Shown here: positions 651-54,970 of the stretch, piece after piece
How positions within the stretch are numbered: the stretch's first letter is position 1
Layout of the letters: the number at the start of each line of letters is the position of its first letter
Origin: Pseudotamlana agarivorans
GTDB lineage: Bacteria; Bacteroidota; Bacteroidia; Flavobacteriales; Flavobacteriaceae
Length of the DNA stretch: 64,000 bases
Assembly: GCF_018860245.1 (NCBI RefSeq)
Contig: NZ_JAHKPD010000001.1
Coordinates: forward strand, 1 to 64,000
Direction of reading: 5' to 3'
Notes under the pieces: model-generated
Database searches by the model: none
The model's input: the letters and a program-made list of their open reading frames with translations, nothing else
Told to the model about the DNA's origin: nothing
Translations under genes and position numbers: made by a program

Positions 651-833
651 GAAGCTCAGTCGTGTCTAAAAAATTGGATCCCGACTGCGCTCGATCTGAC
701 ATTCTACTAATATTCTATTTTTAGTTCTTCGTGTTACTCTGTGAAATCCTCTGCGTAGCTCTGCGTAATAGTTTTTTCTCGCAAAGGCGCGAAGTCGCAA
801 AGCGTAATAATTAAAAATTAATAGTGAAAAATT

Positions 834-856
834 AAAAATGGGCAACTCGATTTAGG
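834..856. repeat. Dispersed 23-base repeat, copy 2
   Basis: This copy differs from copies 1 and 3 at two positions (ATGGGC for ACGGGC and CTCGATT for CTCTATT). It lies 206 bases from copy 1 in the same orientation. Confidence 0.6.
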
Positions 857-26335: not shown

Positions 26336-26611
26336 ATGGGATTAAACATTAAACCATTAGCAGACCGCGTTCTTATTGAACCAGCTGCAGCCGAAACTAA
26401 AACTGCTTCAGGAATTATTATTCCAGACAACGCCAAAGAAAAACCTCAAAAAGGAACTGTAGTAGCTGCTGGACCAGGTACCAAAGATGAACCAATTACG
26501 GTTAAGGTTGGAGATACCGTTTTATATGGCAAATATGCTGGAACAGACTTAAAGCTTGAAGGTAACGATTATTTAATCATGCGTGAGAGTGATATTCTTG
26601 CGATTGTATAA
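26336..26611 (+). CDS. groES: Co-chaperonin GroES
   Basis: The 10-kDa lid of the GroEL chamber, 91 residues. It shows [19 protein letters not shown], the mobile loop [15 protein letters not shown], the dome loop and [16 protein letters not shown]. The family pattern is complete. Unusually, it is not directly followed by groEL: a 515-base gap carries a four-helix-bundle gene between inverted repeats. Confidence 0.97.
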
Positions 26612-26620
26612 TAGGCTATA

Positions 26621-26638
26621 AGCTGTATGCTATAAGCT
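26621..26638. repeat. Left inverted repeat of the cassette
   Basis: AGCTGTATGCTATAAGCT, the partner of 27026-27043 with a single mismatch. It also contains the second of two direct copies of GCTATAAGCT. Confidence 0.75.
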
Positions 26639-26651
26639 AAAAAGCGGTTCT

Positions 26652-27002
26652 ATGAGAGATTTTAAAAAATATGATATTTGGAACTTAAGTCATGTATTTA
26701 CCTTAAAAATATATGCACTTACAAAATCTTTCCCTTCGGAAGAACTTTACGGAGTAACCTCCCAATTACGTAGAGCAAGCTCGTCTATACCTACTAATAT
26801 TAGTGAAGGTTGTGGAAGAGATAGTGACCCCGAATTTAATCGCTTTTTAACTATTGCTTCAGGCTCAGCTTCAGAAGTGGAATATCTAATTATTTTATCG
26901 AAAGATTTGAAATATATTGATGAAGCTTCTTTTAACCAACTCAGCAATGAGATTAATACAATAAAAAGAAAAATTTATTCCTTAAAACAAAAATTAAATT
27001 AA
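26652..27002 (+). CDS. Four-helix-bundle protein (23S rRNA intervening-sequence protein family)
   Basis: 116 residues matching the S23/IVP-type four-helix-bundle family: DIWNLSHVFTLKIYALTKSF, then YGVTSQLRRASSSIPTNISE with GCGR, EFNRFLTIASGSASEVEYLI, and a last helix of Lys-rich heptads (INTIKRKIYSLKQKL). Family members occur in 23S rRNA intervening sequences and as free genes; their biochemical role is not established, though basic conserved surfaces suggest nucleic-acid contact. It lies between groES and groEL and is enclosed by inverted repeats, which suggests it arrived as a cassette. Confidence 0.88.
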   Translation: MRDFKKYDIWNLSHVFTLKIYALTKSFPSEELYGVTSQLRRASSSIPTNISEGCGRDSDPEFNRFLTIASGSASEVEYLIILSKDLKYIDEASFNQLSNEINTIKRKIYSLKQKLN

Positions 27003-27025
27003 CAAGCTAATGGCATAAGGCCAAA

Positions 27026-27043
27026 AGCTTATAGCATATAGCT
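27026..27043. repeat. Right inverted repeat of the cassette
   Basis: AGCTTATAGCATATAGCT, the partner of 26621-26638. It begins 24 bases after the stop of the four-helix-bundle gene. Confidence 0.75.
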
Positions 27044-27075
27044 AAAAGAGGAAATCTCATCAAACAAAAAAGTAA

Positions 27076-28758
<1,683 letters not shown>

Positions 28759-54922: not shown

Positions 54923-54970
54923 GTCAATAGTCAATAGTCAATAGTCAATAGTCAATAGTCAATAGTCAAT
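54923..54970. repeat. Tandem repeat of GTCAATA, about 6.9 copies
   Basis: Six perfect copies of the 7-base unit plus GTCAAT. It sits between the 3' ends of the transglutaminase gene and the polyprenyl synthase gene, 9 bases before the latter's stop. Copy number is likely to vary between strains by slippage. Confidence 0.95.

Follow-up and report, generated by a model that had tools for sequence, protein, structure and literature searches.

In the window (the whole 64-kb stretch of DNA analysed here), groES (26336–26611, plus strand) and groEL (27127–28758, plus strand) are separated by a gene of the IVP family (26652–27002, plus strand), which encodes an S23/Avd-like four-helix-bundle protein of 116 amino acids. 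The order had been proposed by a sequence-only reading, from a groES stop at 26611 to a groEL start at 27127, and the open reading frames agree with it, as does the protein's match to PF05635 (23S_rRNA_IVP; 133.9 bits, cut-off 33.8). The protein also matches TIGR02436 (130.8 bits, cut-off 24) and has PDB relatives 2gsc and 2rld. A Pfam search of the cassette ORF returned PF05635 as the sole match and no tyrosine (HUH) transposase gene, and an Rfam search of the cassette region returned no match. Relative to its nearest relative (L101), substitutions fall 15/10/55 on codon positions 1/2/3; thus, the window gene encodes a constrained protein. We know of no established function for S23/IVP proteins.

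The sequence-only reading had also noted two 18-base arms around the gene, at 26621–26638 and 27026–27043 (plus-strand coordinates), and recomputation again found them complementary at 17 of 18 positions. Each arm is part of a longer heptad array that had gone unnoticed. The 5′ array (26615–26645, plus strand; pattern match 26615–26637) repeats the word GCTNTAN, with complete heptads GCTATAA, GCTGTAT and GCTATAA at 26615–26635 followed by a further GCT, and the duplication already seen on this side is that of GCTATAAGCT, present at 26615–26624 and 26629–26638 with a spacing of exactly two 7-mers. The 3′ array (27006–27047, plus strand; TRF array 27004–27048) carries the reverse complement of the GCTNTAN-type word and consists of six heptads (GCTAATG, GCATAAG, GCCAAAA, GCTTATA, GCATATA and GCTAAAA). 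GCTNTAN is common to nearly all relatives that lie between groES and groEL. Directly downstream, 27044–27126 (plus strand) aligns with the groES-groEL gap of cassette-less congeners (L041, L043) and contains the right half of a first hairpin and a second hairpin, TTCCCGCCTGTGCGGGAA, at 27092–27109.

The groES-groEL gap folds more stably than shuffled sequences (z −3.6, 0/100 shuffles as good), with an arm duplex of −29.9 kcal/mol when gap sequences are used and −38 kcal/mol with 90-nt flanks. The arm-pair score is 15.5; for the flanks of 422 other ORFs, the 95th percentile is 12.5 and the 99th 17.4. Taken alone, the window pair is moderately unusual; it is decisive through its recurrence at other loci.

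Copies at other loci and their words

The genome contains nine PF05635 genes, eight intact and one broken by a frameshift. All nine lie between two genes (neighbours verified for most), mostly of one pathway or complex: rfbB-rfbA, thiD-thiE, gmd-fcl, thrB-thrC, sufC-sufD, moeA-tauE, groES-groEL, the mvaD gene and its neighbour, and two parts of methionine synthase. In the last case (L003, G000:C23:84662-84976), methionine synthase is split into two genes and the end of the IVP gene between them overlaps the downstream start; the broken copy is the one at sufC-sufD, where sufC was identified by eye from sequence. Most copies have their own word of 7–8 nt, repeated and inverted across the gene, and these words, on which the sequence-only reading was silent, change from one copy to the next (among them AGGAGTTA, GTTGACC/GTCAACA, GACGGAA, TTAATAATGAA and AAGTGCCTAAAG). 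The best match of an upstream array was its own downstream array in seven of the nine copies; it was not for the metH copy, nor for the broken sufC-sufD copy, whose upstream array best matches the downstream array of the metH copy. The expectation of further repeat-flanked copies was thus borne out, here and elsewhere. Within genomes, paired IVP genes are at most 73% identical (n = 161) and there is no sign of recent copy-paste. A simple promiscuous (autonomous) transposon was rejected because of this divergence.

PF05635-type genes are common in the Bacteroidota, with 90 of 118 sampled genomes carrying them. About 120 loci of this phylum were sampled and most show the inverted-arm pattern, which is also seen on cyanobacterial plasmids. 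For 63 loci drawn from the window's genome and from other members of its genus and phylum, the own-arm median was 13.5 versus 9.0 across loci, and 41 of the 63 exceeded the cross-locus 95th percentile. Sixty further loci gave 12.5 versus 7.5 (37/60 above the 95th percentile) and ten plasmid copies from Cyanobacteria and Azospirillum gave 16.0 versus 7.5; the flanks of the 422 other ORFs scored 9.5. The dominant period was 7 nt in 61 of 86 loci and 8 nt in 18, and the signal was flat once the sequences were shuffled. The arms also have a polarity: the AG-rich strand lies 5′ of the IVP gene (AG exceeds CT in 72 loci versus 3) and the GC skew of the 5′ arm is positive rather than negative in 75 loci against 6. 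IVP genes are co-directional with both neighbours in 54 of 63 cases; a special orientation bias was not upheld, since control genes gave 30/48 in the window and 90/109 elsewhere. When arms were searched against the 64-kb window, own arms matched a mean of 0.43 places and foreign arms 0.04, a difference that is suggestive only, with few matches and AT-rich words. Viral-class contigs (L380–L397) carry IVP genes as well, several with heptad arms such as GGCTGTCGGCGTTCGGCC in L383 and L384.

Does the word follow the protein? We compared words among 212 proteins, keeping 19,600 pairs whose genomic neighbours are non-homologous. Word similarity, computed in part on AT-rich sequence, was flat at about 9 below 50% protein identity, rose to 13.9 at 50–60% and reached 17.1 at 60–70%, and the likeness was greater in the same than in the opposite orientation. 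Judged by these comparisons, IVP proteins at unrelated sites have a common word when they are more than 50% identical, and more distant ones do not. The coupling crosses phyla: a Trichormus plasmid copy has the word CAGAATT in common with several Bacteroidota copies at 66–73% identity, and GC heptads occur at a Pseudanabaena copy (cas6-IVP-cas4) whose protein is 56% identical to the window IVP. Because unconstrained flanks should not stay recognisable at such divergence, the word appears to be under selection, and we infer that recognition by the IVP protein would be the simplest source of that selection.

Arrays without a gene and the history of the groES-groEL site

Arrays of the words also occur away from any IVP gene, which the sequence-only reading had not reported. 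Among six related genomes of the genus, which are not independent, pattern matches (counting overlapping windows within an array, and also the arrays that flank the IVP gene) numbered 58, 53 and 37 for the GTCAA word in genomes with the cognate gene versus 5, 8 and 13 in those without, and 21, 8 and 5 versus 1, 2 and 0 for AGKAGTT; patterns reversed as controls gave near zero. For AGKAGTT, the high group includes a gene with one internal stop (G064), and the low group comprises a genome with an intact gene whose word has diverged (G061), one with a broken gene (G063) and one with none (G060). The intact thiD-site gene of G061, yet with few AGKAGTT arrays, counts against a dependence of arrays on the gene. 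GC heptads away from the gene were found in 5 of 7 genomes with a clade member versus 10 of 53 without. The window itself contains an ORF-less array, (GTCAATA)x6.9, at 54923–54970 on the plus strand (TRF array and pattern matches), which carries the word of the gmd-IVP-fcl copy. Period-7 arrays of TAATAATGAAAAAT and ACCAACA at window positions 805–840 and 938–971 resemble the words of the mvaD-side and metH copies, and a dispersed period-7 repeat, GCACTAGGCCTTAGGCCATAGGC, occupies about 20 places (for example L326) in G023, a genome that lacks close IVP relatives of this clade.

The 39 array sites examined divide into 28 between co-directional genes and 11 between convergent genes; divergent gaps hold none (P about 0.001–0.004, with expectation taken from the window's gap shares). 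REP elements likewise avoid divergent promoter gaps. Dispersed arrays were sense or antisense in a 14:12 ratio, and the majority of ORF-less arrays run in a single orientation, without a partner array.

Taking the 80 nearest relatives from named genomes, at least 64 sit between groES and groEL, in many Flavobacteriaceae genera; a GCTNTAN-type word is also carried by relatives at other places, in Cytophagales and related groups. At groES-groEL, IVP distances follow those of GroEL (rho 0.66), some supported splits being in conflict, and this correlation suggests mostly vertical descent with losses. In the window's genus, five of six genomes have no IVP gene at the site. Four of these congeners, whose groES, groEL and upstream region are 85–97% identical to the window in DNA (the GroES proteins being 97–99% identical), have a pair of hairpins in the gap. 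The empty sites sought by the sequence-only reading exist, with readable joints. The window keeps the right part of this hairpin structure directly after the cassette and the left arm of the first hairpin is missing. Parsimony favours a gain of the cassette in the window's lineage, in which about 16 nt would have been replaced, with repeated loss as the alternative.

Several relatives without an IVP gene retain inverted GC heptads in the groES-groEL gap. In many relatives (L041, L042, L043, L044, L013, L014, L018, L020 and L031), the gap contains a GGAAT-type hairpin pair, partly inverted, and not heptads. Stem-forming repeats seem to enter this gap readily.

A possible repeat-recognising protein and its rivals

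What keeps the words and the genes together? The explanation we prefer, tentatively and at a little short of even confidence, is that the window cassette behaves as a REP-like element and that its four-helix-bundle protein recognises the word carried by the cassette. The IVP protein, whose family forms a pentameric ring, would bind this word in nucleic acid, and word recognition would spread or keep the cognate arrays and the cassette in transcribed gaps downstream of genes. The dependence of REP sequences on RAYT would be the analogue. A different enzyme would carry out the joining chemistry, and the IVP gene would probably be expressed by operon read-through. Since dispersed arrays favour neither orientation, DNA would be a likelier target of recognition than RNA; arm pairing in the mRNA may then be a side effect or may serve to leave the host message unharmed. 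Several observations count against this reading: the divergence of copies within a genome shows no recent transposition of the gene, the groES-groEL copies seem to have descended mostly vertically, IVP proteins are near neutral (median net charge +2), which is unlike a typical nucleic-acid binder, and one genome (G045) has GC heptads in its groES-groEL gap, yet no IVP-family gene. Less confidently still, S23/IVP proteins and their repeats may form an undescribed class of repeat-protein pairs, in which each protein recognises a private word of 7–8 nt and seeds or maintains its arrays across the genome. If so, these proteins would supply the partner that heptamer (STRR-type) repeats in Bacteroidota and Cyanobacteria have so far lacked.

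The arms might instead act in RNA. The sequence-only reading had proposed an IVS-like element, in which the arms pair in the mRNA, RNase III cuts the stem, the IVP segment is removed and the groES and groEL messages are separated. The arms are able to pair in many copies (−87 kcal/mol at thiD-thiE, besides the window duplex and its stable fold), and the protein family and a similar size are shared with the rRNA IVS. Among orthologous loci, however, pairing is weakly locus-specific: own arms scored 13.94 versus 13.22 for arms of other species at 65 groES-IVP-groEL loci (53/5000 permutations), and RNAduplex gave −25.6 versus −24.2 at 37 loci (54/5000 permutations). By these comparisons, a conserved stem has weak pair-level support (p about 0.01), whereas the word is strongly conserved. 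Moreover, the own arm pair is not the most stable one at rfbB-rfbA, metH and thrB-thrC, most ORF-less arrays are one-sided with nothing to pair with, and a perfect stem does not need a 7-nt period; we therefore regard RNA excision as unlikely. An RNA-binding autoregulator, in which the IVP ring binds AG-bearing words every 7–8 nt in its own leader and, like TRAP with its GAG/UAG triplets, tunes expression of its own or the downstream gene, would fit the polarity of the 5′ arm, the strict period, the tie between word and protein clade, and the co-direction of the gene with its operon. It is quite improbable, because the 3′ array carries the word in inverted form, which leaves one sense copy per RNA, and because dispersed arrays are almost equally sense and antisense and also lie between convergent genes.

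It is also conceivable, but to our minds very improbable, that the IVP gene is an ordinary old operon gene, inherited vertically, whose arrays and their inversion arose neutrally by replication slippage and template switching. Tandem arrays do grow and shrink, the IVP and GroEL distances are correlated at the groES-groEL site, and co-direction is near that of ordinary genes elsewhere. Neutral arrays, however, would not hold a word at 50–70% identity, at unrelated loci and in other phyla, nor would they scale with the presence of the cognate gene, and the flanks of other genes lack such arms.

Relation to known systems

RNase III excision of a 23S rRNA IVS has been demonstrated in Coxiella (PMC4990558). 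The window cassette resembles the rRNA IVS with an S23/IVP ORF of Coxiella and Leptospira in its protein family, its length of about 0.4 kb, its sporadic presence and its complementary, stem-forming ends. It differs in lying between protein genes of an operon and not inside an rRNA gene, and in having heptad arrays with lineage-specific words as its ends. The REPtron, a RAYT gene flanked by short repeats with ORF-less repeat copies elsewhere in the genome (PMC3733652), is similar in its repeat-flanked gene and its scattered ORF-less repeats; for IVP cassettes, dispersed ORF-less copies of the flanking repeat occur in cognate-gene genomes for three words in few genomes. Avoidance of divergent gaps, noted above for REP elements, is another likeness. 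Unlike RAYT, the IVP protein is a four-helix bundle in which no catalytic residues are known, and it is no HUH/tyrosine transposase, and its repeats are tandem heptads whereas REP repeats are GTAG palindromes. Avd of diversity-generating retroelements is a pentameric four-helix bundle homologous to IVP (PMC10053308). One IVP protein (L004) weakly matches the Avd model (33.7 bits, cut-off 80); however, no reverse transcriptase or TR/VR adjoins the IVP genes, whose neighbours are groES/groEL and the pathway genes listed above.

The P6b stem of the cyanobacterial tRNA-Leu intron also has degenerate heptads along its two sides, as in the IVP cassette, and we know of no protein partner for it. IVP genes are found in CRISPR operons of cyanobacterial plasmids (L181 1501–1860 and L185 1492–1848; cas6-IVP-cas4 and cas10-IVP-cmr3), and IVP genes in cas or other operons may be hitch-hiking cassettes, not functional members. 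In the open-licence literature, the IVP family is described in rRNA, retroelement and CRISPR contexts and heptamer repeats are described without IVP; we found no link there between the S23/IVP family and heptad repeats.

The closest repeats are the STRR/TAACTGA heptamers, intergenic direct repeats of Cyanobacteria, Bacteroidetes and Beggiatoaceae for which we know of no origin and which were described in a report that names no S23/IVP gene (MacGregor 2015, PMC4679880). IVP arrays differ from these in being tied to a protein lineage and in bracketing a gene in inverted orientation. The coupling between clade and word links a protein family without a known function to intergenic heptamer repeats that, to our knowledge, have had no known maker. 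Both become testable questions: which residues read each word, whether it is read in DNA or RNA, and which agent spreads the arrays.
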